Source: Halobellus captivus (lineage in GTDB: Archaea; Halobacteriota; Halobacteria; Halobacteriales; Haloferacaceae). From it: 64,000 nt of DNA. Shown here piece after piece: positions 3,998 to 12,380 of the stretch. The stretch lies in contig NZ_RDQE01000010.1 in assembly GCF_003697845.1 (NCBI RefSeq), positions 62,001-126,000 of the forward strand, written 5' to 3'. The position numbers and the translations under genes were made by a program. The notes under the pieces are model-generated. The model was not told where the DNA came from. It ran no database searches and saw only the letters and a list, made by a program, of their open reading frames with translations. Each line of letters starts with the position of its first letter. The stretch's first letter is position 1.

Positions 3998-5830
3998 ATG
4001 ACCGATCCGGCCGATCTCTCCGTCACGATCGTCGACGGGTACGTCGACGAGCCGGCGCACTTCGGCGTGCCGCCGTACGTCTCGACGTACCCGCGGTACA
4101 CGGCCGGCGCGCTCGTCGACGCGGGCGTCCCCGAGGAGTCGATCACCTACCACACCATCGACGAACTGCGCGACGACCGGAACAAACACGCCGACGTCGC
4201 CGACGCGGACCTCTTCGTCTACGTCGGCGGCATGACCGTCCCCGGCAACTACGTCGGCGGGACGCCCGCCGAGCCCGACGAGGTCCGCGAACTCGGCTGG
4301 ACCGCCGACGGCGTCACGCTGCTCGGCGGACCGGTCCGATTCGGCGTCGGCGAGGAGAACGCCGGCGCACAGGACATGGAGCGCGACGACCTCGACTACG
4401 ACTTCGTCGCGAAGGGCGACGTCGAGGCCGCCGCCCACGACCTGGTCGCGAACGGGCTCGAGGGGTTCGGAAACCGGATGCGCGACAACGACGAGGTCGA
4501 TCGGTGGGCGGCGAAGGGCGCGTTCGTCGTCGAGCAACACCCCAACCACCCCGACTACCTCATCTGCGAGATGGAGACCTCCCGCGGCTGCGCCTACCGC
4601 TGTTCGTTCTGTACGGAGCCGCTGTACGGCAACCCGGCGTTCCGCGAGCCGCGCTCGGTCGTCGACGAGGTGGACGCGCTCTCGGACAGGGGGGTCAAAC
4701 ACTTCCGGCTGGGCCGACAGGCCGACATCCTCGCGTTCGGCGGCGACGGCGAGGCCCCGAACCCCGACGCGTTGCGGGAGCTGTACGGCGGGATCCGCGA
4801 GGTCGCGCCCGACCTGGAGACGCTCCACCTCGACAACATGAACCCCGTGACGATCGTGGAGTACCCCGAGGCGTCCCGCGAGGCGATCCGGGTCATCGCC
4901 GAGCACAACACGCCCGGCGACACGGCCGCGTTCGGCCTCGAGTCCGCGGACCCCGTCGTCCGGGAGGAGAACAACCTGCTCGTCACCGCCGAGGAGTGTC
5001 TGGAGGCGGTCCGCGTCGTCAACGAGGAGGGCGGCTGGCGGCCGGGCGACCCCACCGCCGGCGACTCCGGAGGCGTCCCGGGCCCGGACGACGACCGGCG
5101 GTACGGCCCCTCCACCGGCCCCGACGCGAGTCCGCGGCTCCCGAAGCTCCTCCCCGGGATCAACCTCGTTCACGGACTGAAGGGCGAGCGGCCCGAGACG
5201 TACGAGCACAACAAGCGGTTCCTCGGGCGCGTCTACGACGAGGGGCTCATGCTCCGGCGGATCAACGTCCGGCAGGTGATGGCCTTCGCCGGCACCGAGA
5301 TGGCCGAGACCGGCGCGGACATCGCCCAGGAGCACAAGGACCGGTTCGCCTCCTACAAGCGCGAGGTGCGCGAGACGATCGACAACCCGATGCTCGACCG
5401 GGTGGTTCCGCCCGGCACCGTCCTGCCGGACGTCCACCTCGAGTACCACCAGGACGGGAAGACGTTCGGCCGACAGCTCGGCACCTACGCCCTGCTCGTC
5501 GCGGTTCCCGGCGAGCGCGAACTCGGCACCGCGATCGACGTGGCGATCACGGACCACGGCTACCGCTCCGTGACGGGCGTCCCCTACCCGCTCGACGTCA
5601 ACGCGGCCTCGATGGACGAGCTGACCGCGATCCCCGGGATCAATCGGAACACGGCGGGCGACGTCGTCGTGGGGAGGCCGTACGACGGGATCGACGCGGT
5701 CGACGCCGGCGTCGCCGACCTCTCCCGGTTCGCGGTCGCCGGCGACGCGAGGGTACCGATCCCCGGCCGCGACCGTCCCGGGTCCGGCCCCGGTCCGGCG
5801 TCCCGATCGTCGCTCGGTCGCGGGGACTGA
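3998..5830 (+). CDS. Radical SAM protein with B12-binding-like N-terminus and C-terminal helix-hairpin-helix
   Basis: The 610-residue protein carries the radical-SAM cluster motif C198-x3-C202-x2-C205 (G-C-A-Y-R-C-S-F-C). The N-terminal 190 residues resemble the Rossmann-like domain that precedes the SAM barrel in B12-type and YgiQ-type families. A G-L-E-S-A-D segment (about residue 310) and a later barrel half follow. Near residue 530-560, N-A-A-S-M-D-E-L-T-A-I-P-G-I forms a helix-hairpin-helix typical of nucleic-acid binding. A TRAM-like or RNA-modifying role is possible but the substrate is unknown. The stop overlaps the next ATG by one base, so the pair is coupled to a metallo-beta-lactamase gene. 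The family occurs across archaea. Confidence 0.85.
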   Translation: MTDPADLSVTIVDGYVDEPAHFGVPPYVSTYPRYTAGALVDAGVPEESITYHTIDELRDDRNKHADVADADLFVYVGGMTVPGNYVGGTPAEPDEVRELGWTADGVTLLGGPVRFGVGEENAGAQDMERDDLDYDFVAKGDVEAAAHDLVANGLEGFGNRMRDNDEVDRWAAKGAFVVEQHPNHPDYLICEMETSRGCAYRCSFCTEPLYGNPAFREPRSVVDEVDALSDRGVKHFRLGRQADILAFGGDGEAPNPDALRELYGGIREVAPDLETLHLDNMNPVTIVEYPEASREAIRVIAEHNTPGDTAAFGLESADPVVREENNLLVTAEECLEAVRVVNEEGGWRPGDPTAGDSGGVPGPDDDRRYGPSTGPDASPRLPKLLPGINLVHGLKGERPETYEHNKRFLGRVYDEGLMLRRINVRQVMAFAGTEMAETGADIAQEHKDRFASYKREVRETIDNPMLDRVVPPGTVLPDVHLEYHQDGKTFGRQLGTYALLVAVPGERELGTAIDVAITDHGYRSVTGVPYPLDVNAASMDELTAIPGINRNTAGDVVVGRPYDGIDAVDAGVADLSRFAVAGDARVPIPGRDRPGSGPGPASRSSLGRGD

Positions 5831-6651
5831 TGTCGTCACCAGGACCCGCCGGGGACGTCTCCTCGTCGCCGACGATCACCCGCGTCGAACTCCCGGTCGA
5901 CACCCGCGCGACGACGGGAACGACGAACGCCTACCTCGCGAACGGCCTCCTCGTCGACCCCGCGGTCCGGACGGACGACCTCGACGAGGCCGTGGCGTCA
6001 CACGGATCGGCGGACGGATCCGGGATCGGGGCGATCGCCGTCACGCACACCCATCCGGACCACGTCGGCGCGGTCGCCGACTACGCGGACCGGACGGACG
6101 CGACCGTCCACGCGCACGCGGACCACGTCGAACGGTTCCGCGACGCGACCGGGACCGATCCGGACGGGACGTTCCGCGACGGCGACACGCTCGGGACGAC
6201 CGGCGTCCGCGCGCTCGACACGCCGGGGCACGCGCCCGACCACGTCGCGTTCGTTGTCGAGGACGACCCCGCCACCGCGGCCCTCGTCGGCGACCTCGCC
6301 GTCGCCGAGGGAAGCGTCGTCGTCGGGGCGCCCGAGGGGAACCTCCGCGAGTACCTGGCGAGTCTCGAACGAGTGCGCGACGCCGGCTTCGACCGGCTGT
6401 ACCCCGGCCACGGCCCGACGATCGAGGACCCGAACGCGACCTGCGAGCGGCTGATCGACCACCGGATCGCCCGCGAGGAGCGGGTGCTCGCGGCGGTCGA
6501 GGCCGGCGCGGCCGACGTCGACGCGGTCCTCGAGGCGGCCTACGACAAGGACCTGACCGGCGTGGCGGACCTCGCGCGGGCGACGGTTCGTGCGCACCTC
6601 GAGAAGCTGGCCGCCGAGGGGCGGATCGACGCGGCGTGGGACGACGGGTAG
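5830..6651 (+). CDS. Metallo-beta-lactamase fold hydrolase with C-terminal winged helix
   Basis: The 273-residue protein has the metal-binding motif H73-x-H75-x-D77-H78. A D-T-P-G-H-A segment near residue 130, a G-D-L-A segment near 153 and a Y-P-G-H-G-P segment near 195 complete the binuclear zinc site. The last 60 residues (A-V-E-A-G through L-E-K-L-A-A-E-G-R-I) form a winged helix like that of LACTB2-type hydrolases. The substrate could be a thioester, a lactone or RNA; LACTB2 is an RNase. The one-base overlap with the radical SAM gene, which itself carries a helix-hairpin-helix, suggests a shared process, perhaps on RNA. That link is inference. Confidence 0.85.
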   Translation: MSSPGPAGDVSSSPTITRVELPVDTRATTGTTNAYLANGLLVDPAVRTDDLDEAVASHGSADGSGIGAIAVTHTHPDHVGAVADYADRTDATVHAHADHVERFRDATGTDPDGTFRDGDTLGTTGVRALDTPGHAPDHVAFVVEDDPATAALVGDLAVAEGSVVVGAPEGNLREYLASLERVRDAGFDRLYPGHGPTIEDPNATCERLIDHRIAREERVLAAVEAGAADVDAVLEAAYDKDLTGVADLARATVRAHLEKLAAEGRIDAAWDDG

Positions 6652-6677: not shown

Positions 6678-7601
6678 CTACCCGCCGGTCGACTCAGTGC
6701 CGTCGATCGGATCCCCGTCACCGGACGCCGGGTCCCGTTCGACGTGGTCCCGTTCGGCCGGGATCGAGACGGTCGCCGACCGATCGGTCACGACGCCGTA
6801 CTCCGCGGTCGCGACCGACTGCGGAGCCCCCTCGAGCTCCGGCCCGTACCGCGATCCGAGCGAGGCGCGGACCGCGTCGCGGACGCAGGCCCTGATCGCC
6901 GCCCCGATCGCGGTGGCGGAGCCCGAGAAGGTCCTGCCCCCGTTATCACATCCATGTCCGTTCCCGTCTCCACCTCCATCCCCGTCCGAGTCGCGCTCCG
7001 GCGGGCAGCCGACCACGACCGCGTCGCTCGTCGTGCCGGGGAACCCGACCGTCGCGAGCAGCGTCGCCGCCTTCGCCTCGGCGGCGACCGCGACGAGGTT
7101 CGCGAGCGCGCCGGGCGCGAGCGGGCGGTCCGCGCCGACGAGGAGGTTGACGGTGCCGGCGGGGGGCGTCGCGTCCGGATCGACGTCGGATCGGACGTCG
7201 ACCTCGGGGGTGCCGGCGGGATCGATCTTCTCCTCCGGGAGCGGGAGCGCGGCGGGGTTCGAGACCCCCGCGGTGGCGAGCACGGTCGCTCCGTCAAGCC
7301 GTGCGACCCGGCCGTGTCGCTGGTCGACGCCGGTGAGGAGCGCGGGAGTGTCGGCAGGGGCGCCGTCGCTCTCGGCGTCGGCGAACCCCGCCGCGTCGAC
7401 TCGTCCGTCGACGTACTCGCGGAGGTCCCGCCGGCCGGCGTCGTCCCATCCTTCCGGGACCGTCACGTTGTAGGCGGCGTCGGCGACGCGGACCCCGCCG
7501 TCGAACCCGGTCGAGAGGAACCGTGTCGGGCCGTCGGTCCGACGGAACCGACAGACGCCGTCGATGACGTCCGCACTGAACGCGGAACGTCGACCGCTCA
7601 T
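6678..7601 (-). CDS. cbiZ: Adenosylcobinamide amidohydrolase
   Basis: The 307-residue protein begins at the ATG at 7601, which overlaps the stop of cobD by 4 bases. Segments recognisable as CbiZ include an early L-S-T-G-F-D-G-G, a V-L-A-T-A-G-V-S-N-P-A segment, a T-V-N-L-L-V segment, and a late F-S-G-S-A-T-A-I-G-A-A-I segment. CbiZ cleaves the aminopropanol side chain from adenosylcobinamide to give adenosylcobyric acid, which lets archaea salvage incomplete corrinoids. It is the last gene of the six-gene cobalamin operon. A His/Asp/Gly-rich low-complexity insert (about residues 205-225) is unusual and probably a surface loop. Confidence 0.87.
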   Translation of the reverse strand: MSGRRSAFSADVIDGVCRFRRTDGPTRFLSTGFDGGVRVADAAYNVTVPEGWDDAGRRDLREYVDGRVDAAGFADAESDGAPADTPALLTGVDQRHGRVARLDGATVLATAGVSNPAALPLPEEKIDPAGTPEVDVRSDVDPDATPPAGTVNLLVGADRPLAPGALANLVAVAAEAKAATLLATVGFPGTTSDAVVVGCPPERDSDGDGGGDGNGHGCDNGGRTFSGSATAIGAAIRACVRDAVRASLGSRYGPELEGAPQSVATAEYGVVTDRSATVSIPAERDHVERDPASGDGDPIDGTESTGG

Positions 7602-8653
7602 ACGCCGAGCGCGTCGAGGAGCCGGTCGTTCTCCCGCGGTCGACGGATCGCGGTACGCAGGTGGTTGTCGAGCCGCGGGAACGACCGGGCGTCCCGGAGG
7701 ACGATCCCTCGCTCCCTCGCGACCTCCAGGATCGCGTCGGGGCCGTCCCTCCCCGCATCGAAGAGGAGGAACGGCGCGTCGGAGGAGTACACCTCCCACT
7801 CGGTCGCGAGGCGTTCCCGGACGCGCTCGCGTTCGGCGGCGACGCGGTCGCGCGTTCGCTCGACGAACTCCGTCCGCCGCAGACAGTGCGTGCCGACCGC
7901 GGCGGCCGGCGTCGACAATCCCCAAGGGAGCCGCCCGCGGTCGAGCCGGTCACGGATCCGTCCCGTCGCGACGAGGAACCCGGCTCGCAGTCCCGGAAGG
8001 CCGAACATCTTCGTGAGCGATCGCGCGACGACGACGCCGGGTTCGCCCGCGAGCGACGGCTGGGACGTGAAATCGAGGAACGCCTCGTCGACGAACAGCG
8101 TGGTCCCGGCGTCCCGACAGCGCGCCGCGAGCCGGAGTAACCTGTCCCGGTCGACGAGCTCCCCCGTCGGGTTGTTCGGCGTACAGACGACGACGAGCGC
8201 GTGCTCGGCCGGGTCGACGTCGAGGACCTCGTCGTGAGCGACGGGCATCGGACGGCCGCCCTGGAGCCGGACCTCGCGGGCGTACTCGCCGAAGGACGGC
8301 TCGGGGATCACCGCGGAGTCGCCGTCGTCGAGCGCGACCGCGAAGAGCAGCCGCATCCCGGCCATCGCGCCCGCGGTCGGGATCACCTCGGGGGGAGCGC
8401 AGTCGACGTAATCGGCGGCGGCCGCACGGAAGGCGACGTAGTCGTCCGCGGGATATCTCCCCGACGCCGAGAGCGCCGAATCGTACACGGCCGTCACTCC
8501 CGAGGGGGTCTCCGGGTTCGTGTTCGCGCTGAAATCGATCACGCCGGGGTCCGTGGCCCCGCCGTGGGGCACGCGACCGATGTCGTCCAGCGCCTTCGCG
8601 TCCATGCCATCGATCCCGGCGCGATCCTCAAAAACCCACCTCCGCTCGGTCAC
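7598..8653 (-). CDS. cobD: L-threonine-O-3-phosphate decarboxylase (aminotransferase fold)
   Basis: The 351-residue PLP enzyme of fold type I makes (R)-1-aminopropanol phosphate for the corrinoid side chain. Seen are D-F-S-A-N-T-N-P near residue 40, the C-T-P-N-N-P-T-G segment near 157, V-D-E-A-F-L-D-F near 188 and the PLP lysine K215 in S-L-T-K-M-F-G-L-P-G. The GTG at 8653 is chosen as start because it overlaps the cobY stop by 4 bases. The in-frame ATG at 8605 is a credible alternative, since many homologues begin with M-D-x-x-A. A general histidinol-phosphate aminotransferase is the main look-alike, but operon context decides. Confidence 0.88.
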   Translation of the reverse strand: MTERRWVFEDRAGIDGMDAKALDDIGRVPHGGATDPGVIDFSANTNPETPSGVTAVYDSALSASGRYPADDYVAFRAAAADYVDCAPPEVIPTAGAMAGMRLLFAVALDDGDSAVIPEPSFGEYAREVRLQGGRPMPVAHDEVLDVDPAEHALVVVCTPNNPTGELVDRDRLLRLAARCRDAGTTLFVDEAFLDFTSQPSLAGEPGVVVARSLTKMFGLPGLRAGFLVATGRIRDRLDRGRLPWGLSTPAAAVGTHCLRRTEFVERTRDRVAAERERVRERLATEWEVYSSDAPFLLFDAGRDGPDAILEVARERGIVLRDARSFPRLDNHLRTAIRRPRENDRLLDALGV

Positions 8654-9354
8654 GAGCGGAGAATCCGGCGTGTCAGCTCGAGATCCCCCGGCCGGTTGAC
8701 GTTGACCGCGACGGAGTCCCGCTCGCGGACGACGACCCGATCTGCCCCGTCGCCGACGACGTTCAGGCCGGTCGGTACGACCGCGGTCCCGTCGTGTTCG
8801 AACGACGTGTCGACGCTCGCGCCGATCGCACGTTTGTACGCGACCGGTACGCAGACCGTTACCGACCGGACGAGATCGTCGGGAGTGGAGATCGTCTCGT
8901 TGCGTGGCGAAGCCGTCTCGTCGGGAGGAGACGCCGTCTCACCGGGAGTAGTCCCGGCCGAGATCGCCTCGTCGATCGCGGCCTCGACGTCTCGCCCCCG
9001 GAGCAGAGGGAGGTCGGCCGCGACCGTGACGGCCGGGCGGTCGACCGCCGAGAGTCCCACCTCGAGGTCGGCGACGTAGCCCTCTCCGCTCCCGTCCAGG
9101 ACGGTACACGGCACCGTCGCCTCCTCGGCGAGCCCCGACACGAGTGCGTACCGGGTGTCGGGTGCGTGTGGCGACGCGACGGCGGCGACGCGGGAGACGC
9201 CGGCGTCCGCCAACGCGTCGAGGACCCTGGCGATCATCGATCGACCGCCGACCTCGACCAGGGGCTTTTCGACGTCGCCGCCGAGACGCGTCCCGCGCCC
9301 GCCACAGAGGAGCACGGCCGGGAGGGTCCGGCCCTCGCGATCGTCTCCGGTCAC
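8650..9354 (-). CDS. cobY: NTP:adenosylcobinamide-phosphate nucleotidyltransferase (archaeal CobY)
   Basis: The start is the GTG at 9354, which overlaps the cobS stop by 4 bases and gives 234 residues. A nucleotide-binding signature L-L-C-G-G-R-G-T-R-L near residue 16 and a V-A-A-D-L-P-L-L metal-binding segment near 100 mark the MobA/GlmU-like fold. CobY guanylylates adenosylcobinamide phosphate. It replaces the bacterial bifunctional CobU in archaea and lacks kinase activity. A repeated D-E-T-A-S / N-E-T-I-S loop (about residues 120-145) is extra sequence. It sits between cobS and cobD, the next and previous steps of nucleotide-loop assembly. Confidence 0.88.
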   Translation of the reverse strand: MTGDDREGRTLPAVLLCGGRGTRLGGDVEKPLVEVGGRSMIARVLDALADAGVSRVAAVASPHAPDTRYALVSGLAEEATVPCTVLDGSGEGYVADLEVGLSAVDRPAVTVAADLPLLRGRDVEAAIDEAISAGTTPGETASPPDETASPRNETISTPDDLVRSVTVCVPVAYKRAIGASVDTSFEHDGTAVVPTGLNVVGDGADRVVVRERDSVAVNVNRPGDLELTRRILRS

Positions 9355-10262
9355 GCGATCGTCCACGCCACCACCCCCGCGTGGAGCGCGACCGCCCGCC
9401 CGAGCTCGTTCGCCGCGCCGAGGACGTCTCCGCTCACCCCGCCGAGCCACGGGCGGACGCGAGCCATGAGCACGAGGGAGACGACGGGACCCGCGAGCAA
9501 CGCGGCCGCGAGCGCCAGGAACGCGCCGGGCGGCGGCACGAGCAGGACGAGGACGGACGCGACCGCGACCGGCACCAGCGACCGCGGCCCGACCTCGCTG
9601 ACCACCGCGGATCCGATCCCCTCGTGTGCCGGCGTTCCGAGACAGGCGAGAAGCGCCATCCCCGCCTTGGCGCCGACCTCGGCGGCGAGGACGACCCTGA
9701 ACACGACGGTTCCGACGAGCACGCTGCCGCCCGCGTCGCCGACTCCACTACCCGTGCCGCCGACGAACCCGGTGGCGAGCGCCAGCGCGCCGAGCGTCGT
9801 GGCGAGCAGCGTGACGCCGAGCGCGAGCGTGCCGCCGACGCCGAGGTCGGCGTCCTTCAGGACCGCCAGCCGACGGTCGGGGTCGTGCGCGGCGACCGCG
9901 TCGCCGAGGTCCGCGAGCCCGTCGGCGTGGGTGACGCCGGTGAGGAGATGGAGCGCGACGAGGTAGCCGGCCGCGGCGGTCCACGGCGAGGGAGCGAGAA
10001 ACGCGAGCCCCGCGACCGATCCGATCCCCGCGCCGACCACCGGAAACGTCCAGGGGGACCGCCGGAACGCGTGCCAATCCGCGGGAGCGGCACCTGGCAT
10101 CGGCACCCGCGTCAGGAACGTGAACGCGCCGCGAAGCGCGGGGATCGGGTGGACCGGTGGGCCGACCCAATTTTCGTCGTCTCCGAAGCCCTCCGTGTCT
10201 CCGGTCTCCTCCGCGTCTCCGTCGTCTCCGAAGCCCTCGGTGTCGTCATCGCTCCCGGTCAC
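9351..10262 (-). CDS. cobS: Adenosylcobinamide-GDP ribazoletransferase (cobalamin synthase)
   Basis: The 303-residue membrane protein starts with a GTG at 10262 that overlaps the cbiB stop by 4 bases. The acidic N-terminal tail (about 40 residues with a repeated G-F-G-D-D) precedes the conserved T-F-L-T-R-V-P region. H-A-D-G-L-A-D-L-G-D-A near residue 115 carries the acidic metal-binding motif of CobS, and about six hydrophobic segments follow. It joins GDP-activated cobinamide to alpha-ribazole or its phosphate at the membrane. The extended tail is not part of the catalytic domain and is probably a halophilic addition. Confidence 0.9.
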   Translation of the reverse strand: MTGSDDDTEGFGDDGDAEETGDTEGFGDDENWVGPPVHPIPALRGAFTFLTRVPMPGAAPADWHAFRRSPWTFPVVGAGIGSVAGLAFLAPSPWTAAAGYLVALHLLTGVTHADGLADLGDAVAAHDPDRRLAVLKDADLGVGGTLALGVTLLATTLGALALATGFVGGTGSGVGDAGGSVLVGTVVFRVVLAAEVGAKAGMALLACLGTPAHEGIGSAVVSEVGPRSLVPVAVASVLVLLVPPPGAFLALAAALLAGPVVSLVLMARVRPWLGGVSGDVLGAANELGRAVALHAGVVAWTIA

Positions 10263-11218
10263 AGCGCCAGCGACACCCCCGCGACGCCGACGCCGAGCCA
10301 CCCGGCCCGCGACACGATCCGCACGCCCCGCCGCGCCTCCGGGGTCGTCGGGAGCGCGCGCTCGGCCAACAGCGTGTACGCGTCCGGCTTCGCCAGTCGA
10401 ACGTCGAGCACCGCCGCGAGCGACCCCATCGGCCAGCCGGAGTTCGGCGAGTCGGGAGCGAGCGCCGCGGACCGGGCGCGTCCGAGGCTCGCGGTCGGGT
10501 CGGTCGAGGCTGCCCCCCAGCCGACCGCGAGGATCAGGAGCGCGGTCGCCCGCGCCGGGAGCCACATGACGGCGTCGTCGAGGCGGGCGGGCGCCCAGCC
10601 GGCCCGCCGGTCGCGATACCCGAGCATCGAGTCCAGCGTGTTGACGCCCTTGACCCAGGCGGCCGCACCCGCGGCGGCGGCGAGCACGACCGCCGGCGGG
10701 AGCCCCGCGTACGAGGCGAGGACCGCCCCGACGACGAACCCGAGGAGGGGAGCGATCAGGCCGTCCGCGAGGTTCTCCGCCGCGCTCTCGACGGCCGCGG
10801 ACCGGACGTGAGCGGCCGACAGGTCCGCGGCGTCCCGCCCCGCGAGCGCGCGCAGCTCGCGGCGCGCCGCCTCGAGGTCCCCGTCGGCGAGATCGATCAC
10901 GTCGCCGGCGACGGAAAGCAGCATCCGACGGCTCGAGCAGGCGAAGAGGACGACTCCCGCTGTCGCGGCGGTCGGGACGGCGGACGCGGGAAACACGGAT
11001 CCGACCGCGATCACCGGCGCGGCGAGGAGCGCGGCGAAGGCTACGGGAGCGACGACCGCGAGCGCGACGCCGACGGATCGCGAGTCGGGTAGCCGGTCGT
11101 CGAGCGCGGCGACGACCCGCCCGAGCCACGCCACGGGGTGAAGGGAGGACGGCGGCTCCGAGAGGGTCCGGTCGAGGGCGGCGGCGAGCGCGAGCGCGCC
11201 GGCCGCCGCGAGCGTCAC
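10259..11218 (-). CDS. cbiB: Adenosylcobinamide-phosphate synthase
   Basis: The start is the GTG at 11218, overlapping the upstream HAD gene stop by 4 bases, and gives 319 residues. The S-L-H-P-V-A-W-L-G start, the R-S-A-A-V-E-S-A-A-E-N-L-A-D-G segment near residue 145 and V-N-T-L-D-S-M-L-G-Y near 200 are hallmark CbiB motifs. Several hydrophobic helices show that it is an integral membrane protein. It attaches aminopropanol (phosphate) to adenosylcobyric acid. It precedes cobS, the next membrane step. Confidence 0.92.
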   Translation of the reverse strand: MTLAAAGALALAAALDRTLSEPPSSLHPVAWLGRVVAALDDRLPDSRSVGVALAVVAPVAFAALLAAPVIAVGSVFPASAVPTAATAGVVLFACSSRRMLLSVAGDVIDLADGDLEAARRELRALAGRDAADLSAAHVRSAAVESAAENLADGLIAPLLGFVVGAVLASYAGLPPAVVLAAAAGAAAWVKGVNTLDSMLGYRDRRAGWAPARLDDAVMWLPARATALLILAVGWGAASTDPTASLGRARSAALAPDSPNSGWPMGSLAAVLDVRLAKPDAYTLLAERALPTTPEARRGVRIVSRAGWLGVGVAGVSLAL

Positions 11219-11835
11219 GGCTCGGCCTCCAGCTCGCCGCCGATCGCGTCGAGGGGGATCTCCGTCACGTCGAGGAACCGGCCGCCCACCTCGACGATCC
11301 CGCCGTCGGTCGTCGAGTCGTTCCCGACGTGGATCAGCGCCGACGGCGCGACGCCGAGCGCCTCCGCCGCGGCCTCGAACGCCTTCGGATGCGGCTTCCG
11401 CCAGCCGCAGCCGACGCTCGTCGTGACCGCGTCGAACTCCCCGCGGAGGCCCGCGCGTATCAGCGTCCGGGGAACCAGCTCCGGGACCGCGCAGTTCGAG
11501 CAGATCCCGACCGGACCGCGGTCGGCCGCCGTCCGGACCGCGTCCAGCGCGTTCTCTCGGCGGGTGACCTCGGGATCGAAGGCGGCGACGACGGCGTGAC
11601 GAACGACGTTGTCCGGGGCGTCGACGCCGCGCGAGTCGAGGGCTGCGGCCACGTGCGCCGGGAGGGGGACCTCCGCGCCGTCCGGGGCGTCGACGTGCCG
11701 CTCGCCGTACGCGACGTGCCAGTCGTCGGGGACGGCGACGTCTCGCGACTCGAGCTCGCGCGCGACGACCTCGGCCGGGTCCGTCGGGTACTCGACGTCC
11801 ACGAGCGTGCCGAAGAGATCGAACGTAACTGCCAC
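11215..11835 (-). CDS. HAD-superfamily hydrolase, first gene of the cobalamin operon
   Basis: The 206-residue protein shows HAD motif I at D6-L-F8-G-T10, motif II in I-C-S-N-C-A (about residue 110), motif III lysine in W-R-K-P-H-P-K and motif IV in G-N-D-S-T-T-D. The second Asp of the D-x-D motif used by most HAD phosphatases is Phe8 here, as in haloacid-dehalogenase-type members. Its place at the head of an otherwise pure late-B12 operon, coupled by a GTGA overlap, suggests it supplies the alpha-ribazole/cobalamin 5'-phosphate phosphatase step missing from the operon. The Phe8 substitution weakens that idea. Function remains unproven. Confidence 0.72.
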   Translation of the reverse strand: MAVTFDLFGTLVDVEYPTDPAEVVARELESRDVAVPDDWHVAYGERHVDAPDGAEVPLPAHVAAALDSRGVDAPDNVVRHAVVAAFDPEVTRRENALDAVRTAADRGPVGICSNCAVPELVPRTLIRAGLRGEFDAVTTSVGCGWRKPHPKAFEAAAEALGVAPSALIHVGNDSTTDGGIVEVGGRFLDVTEIPLDAIGGELEAEP

Positions 11836-11897: not shown

Positions 11898-12380
11898 TCA
11901 AAGCAGCTGGCCGAGGTGGAGGTTGTAGAACCGATAGAGCCCGGAGACCCACGCACAGAGCCAGAGGATCATGAATCCGGCGACACCAACGCGGAGCCGG
12001 CCGCGCCACTTTCCCATGTCCTCGTGGAGCTCGTCGATGTCGACGTCGGGGTCGTCGTAGGCGTCCGCGTCCCGTTTGGCCTGGAAGATCCGGACGATAC
12101 CGGTGAGCGCGAACGTCAACAGCGCGTACGCCTGAAGCCCCAAGAAGGCGTGGACGACGGCCCCGCCGGAGAGCTGTCCGAGGAGCCGCGGCATCATCCA
12201 CGTCACCATCGGAACCGTCGTCAACAGGAGGCCGACGAGAATGTACCGCAGATGACGTATCAACACGTTCCACGTCACGACCTCGGTGTCGATCATGATC
12301 CACGCGCCGTACAGAAGGAACGGGAGGCTCGCCGTTACGGACAGCCCCACCGCCGCCGCGATCACCGACTCGTCGACCAT
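11898..12380 (-). CDS. Membrane protein of the cytochrome b/halocyanin cluster (DUF7321-like)
   Basis: The 160-residue protein has four predicted membrane helices (about residues 5-27, 43-63, 75-96 and 132-153). An acidic cytoplasmic loop with D-P-D-V-D-I-D-E-L-H lies between helices three and four. The hydrophobic core contains several His (H43, H77) that could be relevant to a redox complex, but no haem motif is certain. It diverges from the 12509 gene across a 128-base spacer. Proteins of this type are a regular part of the haloarchaeal cytochrome b cluster as I remember it. The exact role is unknown. Confidence 0.7.
   Translation of the reverse strand: MVDESVIAAAVGLSVTASLPFLLYGAWIMIDTEVVTWNVLIRHLRYILVGLLLTTVPMVTWMMPRLLGQLSGGAVVHAFLGLQAYALLTFALTGIVRIFQAKRDADAYDDPDVDIDELHEDMGKWRGRLRVGVAGFMILWLCAWVSGLYRFYNLHLGQLL

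Follow-up and report, generated by a model that had tools for sequence, protein, structure and literature searches.

Our analysis of a 64,000-nucleotide stretch of the Halobellus captivus genome (contig NZ_RDQE01000010.1, positions 62,001 to 126,000; henceforth the window) shows that the HAD hydrolase encoded at the head of its B12 operon is a real, conserved and uncharacterised protein of the haloarchaeal B12 operon, and lends good support to its connection with late B12 synthesis. We regard the chances as evenly poised that it is a phosphohydrolase of late cobamide synthesis, which would likely act on adenosylcobamide-5'-phosphate and/or alpha-ribazole-5'-phosphate and remove the 5'-phosphate, a step performed by CobC in Salmonella and by CobZ in Methanosarcina. 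The preliminary description of this DNA had proposed that the protein fills the missing phosphatase step: its tie to late B12 synthesis is borne out by linkage to cbiB or cobS, co-occurrence with CobS, the presence of the operon on a plasmid and decay in genomes devoid of CobS, whereas the phosphatase step itself is what we infer.

Table 1. Genes of the B12 operon and motif codons of the HAD gene (positions in the window)
Feature	Positions	Strand	Basis or remark
HAD hydrolase, first operon gene (206 aa, GTG start, TGA stop, no internal stop)	11215..11835	-	ORF exact, PF00702
GTGA, HAD stop overlapping cbiB start	11215..11218	-	
cbiB, adenosylcobinamide-phosphate synthase	10259..11218	-	PF03186 E 7e-63
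cobS, AdoCbi-GDP ribazoletransferase	9351..10262	-	PF02654 E 5e-37; GTGA overlap
cobY-type guanylyltransferase	8650..9354	-	PF12804; TIGR00454 and NF045495 below cut-off
cobD-type L-threonine-phosphate decarboxylase	7598..8653	-	TIGR01140 287 bits, cut-off 291
cbiZ, adenosylcobinamide amidohydrolase	6678..7601	-	PF01955 E 2e-34; ATGA overlap
Motif I nucleophile Asp6 codon	11818..11820	-	role assigned from HAD motif
Phe8 codon, Asp+2 position	11812..11814	-	alignment
Motif II Ser113 codon	11497..11499	-	alignment
Motif III Lys147 codon	11395..11397	-	alignment
Motif IV Asn172 codon (Asp in 117/120 aligned sequences)	11320..11322	-	alignment
Motif IV Asp177 codon	11305..11307	-	alignment

The exact ORF and its overlap with cbiB (Table 1) uphold the earlier view that the HAD gene heads the operon and is coupled to cbiB. 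In the six-gene chain HAD-cbiB-cobS-cobY-cobD-cbiZ each of the five junctions is a 4-base stop/start overlap (GTGA at four, ATGA at one), so that the chain is probably translated in coupled fashion. A promoter and terminator scan of the window found nothing, its consensus being bacterial and not apt for archaea. Genes for a radical SAM protein, an MBL-fold hydrolase and a DUF7321 protein flank the operon (3998-6651 and 11898-12380). The nearest relatives of the window HAD are haloarchaeal, the closest being from Halorubrum (92-94% identical). No match to the HVO_0590-type CobT was found in this genome, in which CobS is present, or, in all, in 19 of 25 genomes.

The statement of the preliminary description that the operon holds no other alpha-ribazole or cobalamin 5'-phosphate phosphatase agrees with our searches, which recovered neither a CobC nor a CobZ match among its genes. 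PF00300, the CobC fold, matches neither the HAD protein nor anything else in this genome (99.6% complete), and PF04608, which we take to be the family of CobZ, likewise has no match anywhere in it; the CbiS model matches over positions 8-194 of 335 only, which is its CbiZ part. In the class as a whole, PF04608 is without a match in 389 of 391 Halobacteria genomes, and one of the two matches falls below the cut-off. The single match above cut-off, of PgpA/CobZ type, lies at G141:C32:12183-12641 (L199). The PF04608 model matches in Methanosarcina acetivorans, and CobZ is described for this organism in the part of PMC3223730 available to us, a coincidence that fits the above family assignment. 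Some unrelated enzyme could perform the dephosphorylation instead.

The protein belongs to the HAD superfamily as judged by its match to PF00702 (E 2e-13, over the curated cut-off), by the presence of D6, T10, S113, K147 and D177, and by a predicted model (pLDDT 95) whose fold matches to HAD structures score Z 17-20. Its motif I is D6-L7-F8-G9-T10, so the second Asp that HAD phosphatases carry two residues after the nucleophile is replaced by Phe8. This peculiarity, already pointed out for the window protein, is fixed in the family: Phe8 occurs in every one of the 118 distinct, full-length sequences in the alignment that come from CobS-containing genomes, among them the window HAD (a set that leaves out L130, from the same genome as the window, and the partial L215), and is thus no chance change. 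Conservation is comparably strict at Asp6 (117/118), Lys147 (119/120) and Asp177 (119/120). Trp39 (115/120) and His61 (118/120) are also near-invariant and lie in a stretch expected to form the cap; they may serve in binding the substrate and in donating a proton. Motif IV of the family reads GDDPxxDG, with D172 in 117 of 120 sequences and D177 as the further acid, an arrangement that is compatible with a Mg2+ site and unlike that of dehalogenases. The window protein itself has N172, D173 and D177, a substitution at residue 172 that the preliminary description does not mention, and the activity of this Halobellus captivus copy may be reduced owing to Asn172.

The phyletic pattern of the HAD was determined in 391 Halobacteria genomes (the class sample, G000 and G050-G439, G000 being this genome) with a profile of 21 sequences at E <= 1e-20; eight candidates were scored per genome, and rescoring 16 genomes in full gave the same result. 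CobS and CbiB were each found in 347 genomes, the two sets being the same apart from one genome each way, and the HAD in 345. Both HAD and CobS are present in 330 genomes, CobS only in 17, the HAD only in 15 and neither in 29; the HAD is hence found in 330 of 347 genomes with CobS versus 15 of 44 without (odds ratio 37, p 3e-21, figures that ignore kinship). Genomic linkage was counted over 150 listed HAD matches of the 345 positive genomes, with CobS or CbiB positions for 114 of these (four Halorubrum CobS positions being assigned through equal E-values). Outside Halorubrum, 80 of 81 HADs lie on the same strand as cbiB or cobS and no further than 500 bases from the former or 1.8 kb from the latter; inside Halorubrum, 9 of 33 HADs are near cbiB or cobS and the cob genes are elsewhere in 24. 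The link is kept at 34% HAD identity in a genome from another family of the order (G070), and a Haladaptatus plasmid (L291, NZ_CP085329.1; the one examined among five plasmid records that match the HAD) carries the operon HAD-cbiB-cobS-NTP transferase-cobT-cobD-cbiZ. A merB gene is situated 1.4 kb from the operon on this plasmid. The gene caller used is crude, having missed cbiB, cobS, cobY, cbiZ and the MBL gene on the window, so neighbours may be overlooked in the locus readings of HAD-less genomes, CobS-lacking genomes, G070 and Halomarina.

The departure of Halorubrum from this pattern appears to reflect a swap of the operon. At 28 of 51 haloarchaeal loci the next genes after the HAD are those for the MBL and radical-SAM proteins, the cob genes being absent from the interval. 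In 20 such or similar genomes (19 Halorubrum and one Halorarius) the five cob genes are located at another site, and in none of the 20 does the 20-kb stretch around them contain a HAD match. The relocated cbiB-cobS-cobY-cobD-cbiZ genes of the 19 Halorubrum (L106-L125) are divergent, being 39-60% identical by gene to window positions 6678-11218, and in a tree of CbiB, CobS and CobD they form part of one clade (support 0.93) apart from the window operon, which gives the relocated operon the look of a foreign acquisition. The same clade holds the operons of G173, the genera g41, g44 and g24, and G430, in all of which the HAD is missing or decayed; the operon of the HAD-less G369 groups with Halorarius and not with this clade. 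The left-behind Halorubrum HADs are constrained: their median dN/dS is 0.185 (300 pairs of 25), and that of the linked HADs 0.166 (36 pairs of 9). At Halorubrum loci from which the cob genes have disappeared, the radical SAM, MBL-fold hydrolase and DUF7321 genes have stayed next to the HAD. An early supposition that B12 genes were missing from roughly half of Halorubrum proved wrong, as CobS is found somewhere in 45 of 49 genomes searched.

Genomes without CobS offer a further view of the constraints on the HAD. Their full HADs number 13, after leaving out G402, where the HAD lies at a contig edge and the genome is 87% complete, G236, where it comes in two contig pieces, G091, where the gene is broken, and the MAG A07HR67, which has cobY, cobD and cbiZ adjoining the HAD, so that its lack of CobS is probably an assembly gap. 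Three of these 13 have lost the nucleophile, versus 1 of 118 HADs of genomes with CobS (Fisher p 0.003, uncorrected for kinship), and departures at conserved columns are higher in the CobS-lacking genomes (p 3e-4). The three cases are G158 (D6A, S113V, D172S), G308 (D6G, S113A, D172V) and G323 (D6A, K147V, motif IV lost); the single CobS-containing genome with a lost nucleophile is G173, whose cob operon lies far from its decayed HAD. Traces of loss are visible as a weak cobS match behind the HAD in G191 (E 1e-4), a cobD still behind the HAD in G170 and a cobT-like gene in G308. Nine of the 13 have 0-4 departures and an intact nucleophile. Two Halomarina species lack CobS and CbiB, and in both the HAD is directly followed by the gene that follows cbiZ in the CobS-containing Halomarina G423, the shared junction and like spacing making one common deletion likely. 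Their HADs retain all motifs and have diverged with dN 0.121 and dS 0.624 (ratio 0.19), a constraint no laxer than that in a CobS-containing Halomarina pair (0.217/0.526, ratio 0.41). Genus g7 is not represented among the CobS-containing genomes of the survey; among six g7 genomes named as lacking CobS, the HAD persists with its motifs intact in three (dN/dS 0.23-0.30), is broken in one and has no match in two. For H. amylolyticum (G008) the search covered CobS.

Part of this retention may, on sequence grounds, concern a separate HAD lineage that was left behind. In the HAD tree the CobS-lacking Halomarina versions group with those of G158, G308 and G173 (support 0.88) and not with CobS-containing Halomarina, and the situation in genus g9 points the same way: all nine CobS-containing g9 genomes (G112, G137, G188 and G272 among them) have two to three HAD matches, which suggests a second, unlinked copy, and the cob-linked HADs of five g9 genomes are 48-53% identical to the query, whereas the CobS-lacking G158 and G233 keep one that is 62-63% identical.

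The converse situation is seen in the 17 of 347 CobS-containing genomes without a HAD match, to which G173 with its decayed copy may be added. Histidine phosphatases were considered as a substitute and set aside: PF00300 is found in 8 of the 17, including strong matches in all six HAD-less g41 genomes, but also in 24 of 50 genomes with the HAD, and its distribution is therefore uninformative on replacement. The cob regions of 15 of the 17 were covered (G051 and G093 being left out), and among ten proteins scanned from five such genomes there was no phosphatase. In two of the loci a BtuF-like binding protein is encoded directly before cbiB, in the HAD slot (L165 7757-8950, g44; L156 7864-8913, g24). 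Since 17 genomes have CobS without the HAD, and others keep the HAD without CobS, the protein is neither always required by the pathway nor useful solely with it, and probably has another use besides late cobamide synthesis.

These observations bear directly on a possible alternative that we entertain only tentatively, namely that the HAD is a phosphohydrolase with a wider or other main substrate, such as a nucleotide, a sugar phosphate or a damaged corrinoid, which is co-expressed with B12 synthesis and helps without being dedicated to it. Such a role would suit the intact HADs under purifying selection in the Halomarina pair (without CobS and CbiB) and three g7 genomes, the retention of the HAD in Halorubrum when the cob genes moved elsewhere, and the 17 CobS-containing genomes that do without it. 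It is countered by the absence of a HAD match from 29 of the 44 genomes without CobS, with the nucleophile lost in three more, and by the persistence of its place beside cbiB even at 34% identity.

The catalytic side of the question turns on the Asp+2 position. In HAD phosphatases the residue there coordinates the metal through its backbone carbonyl, and its side chain serves as an acid/base; Phe8 consequently leaves metal binding possible and takes the acid away. In the phosphohydrolase that we favour, Asp6, the motif IV acids and the main-chain carbonyl of residue 8 would bind Mg2+; Asp6 would attack in line to form a phospho-aspartate, with Ser113 and Lys147 balancing the charge, and water would then hydrolyse this intermediate. 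Since Phe8 takes the place of the customary general acid/base, another group, for example the conserved His61, would have to supply the departing 5'-hydroxyl with its proton, or turnover would be slow. Phe at this position argues against efficient hydrolysis of an alkyl phosphate. The same missing Asp, together with Asn172 in the Halobellus captivus copy, might also be expected of a protein without turnover that acts in corrinoid or nucleotide binding, or as a scaffold or regulatory partner of CbiB; we judge this improbable because the near-invariance of Asp6, Lys147 and Asp177 is the pattern of kept catalysis. Dehalogenases likewise have no Asp at Asp+2, and this had raised the worry that the protein might be one. 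Phe8, and the fact that sequence and fold searches both retrieve L-2-haloacid dehalogenases of solved structure, are consistent with a haloacid dehalogenase or other non-phosphate hydrolase, but the worry is weakened by the family motif IV, which is unlike the SSNxxD of dehalogenases, and by the haloacid dehalogenase type II model (TIGR01428), which scores 41.1 bits versus a cut-off of 125.4. Phosphatases match the fold equally well (AlnB Z 18.4, phosphoglycolate phosphatase Z 18.2), and with both classes at Z 17-19 the fold comparison cannot separate the two; overall, we consider an activity of the dehalogenase type very unlikely. A final, exceedingly improbable idea is that the family acts as a phosphotransferase, which would pass the phosphate of AdoCbl-5'-phosphate or alpha-ribazole-5'-phosphate via a phospho-aspartate, stable for want of an Asp+2 that would speed its hydrolysis, to L-threonine or an aminopropanol precursor; if true, one HAD would fill both gaps given for this branch of the haloarchaeal pathway in the available part of PMC8305020, EC 3.1.3.73 and EC 2.7.1.177.

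The proposal of a phosphatase in this position is not new, as it dates from 2003 according to PMC8305020, in Table 3 of which HVO_0586 / VNG_1577C (HSL01294) is a predicted EC 3.1.3.73 credited to Rodionov 2003. What our analysis contributes are the natural knock-outs (genomes without cob genes and, in some, without the catalytic Asp), the operon swap, the D-x-F found throughout the family in combination with a motif IV of phosphatase type, and the caution called for by Asn172 in this strain's own copy. In the part of PMC8305020 available to us, CobC (EC 3.1.3.73) is without a homolog in haloarchaea, a gap is noted at EC 2.7.1.177 (L-threonine kinase), and no enzyme is proven in haloarchaea for the dephosphorylation that finishes cobamide synthesis. 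A full-text literature search for the tags HVO_0586 and VNG_1577C gave no match besides this paper. The Haloferax cluster given there consists of HVO_0586, cbiB (HVO_0587) and cobS-cobY-cobT-cobD-cbiZ (HVO_0588-0592). As the gene directly before cbiB in a nucleotide-loop operon, the window HAD corresponds in position to HVO_0586, which is numbered beside cbiB and has the same proposed step, and on this positional ground we take the two to be orthologs; the Haloferax cluster differs in having a predicted cobT, which the window operon is without.

Among structurally characterised proteins, the best Foldseek match is the Pyrococcus HAD PH0459 (1x42; E 1e-9, TM 0.59, about 20% identity), which is also the best natural, as opposed to engineered, sequence match in the PDB and, with DFVGTL, likewise has no Asp at Asp+2. 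The L-2-haloacid dehalogenases (1qq5, 1jud, ZgHAD) are like the window HAD in fold; they share the nucleophile Asp and the lack of Asp+2 and differ from the window HAD family in motif IV. CobC, the Salmonella alpha-ribazole phosphatase, shares the proposed reaction and has the histidine phosphatase fold, which is unrelated to the HAD fold and the family of which (PF00300) is absent from this genome. CobZ of Methanosarcina and the CobZ part of CbiS are archaeal and share the proposed reaction, and their family too is unrelated to the HAD. If the phosphohydrolase proposal is true, the HAD would be a phosphatase of its superfamily working without the textbook second Asp, and would represent a third unrelated solution to this step after CobC and CobZ.
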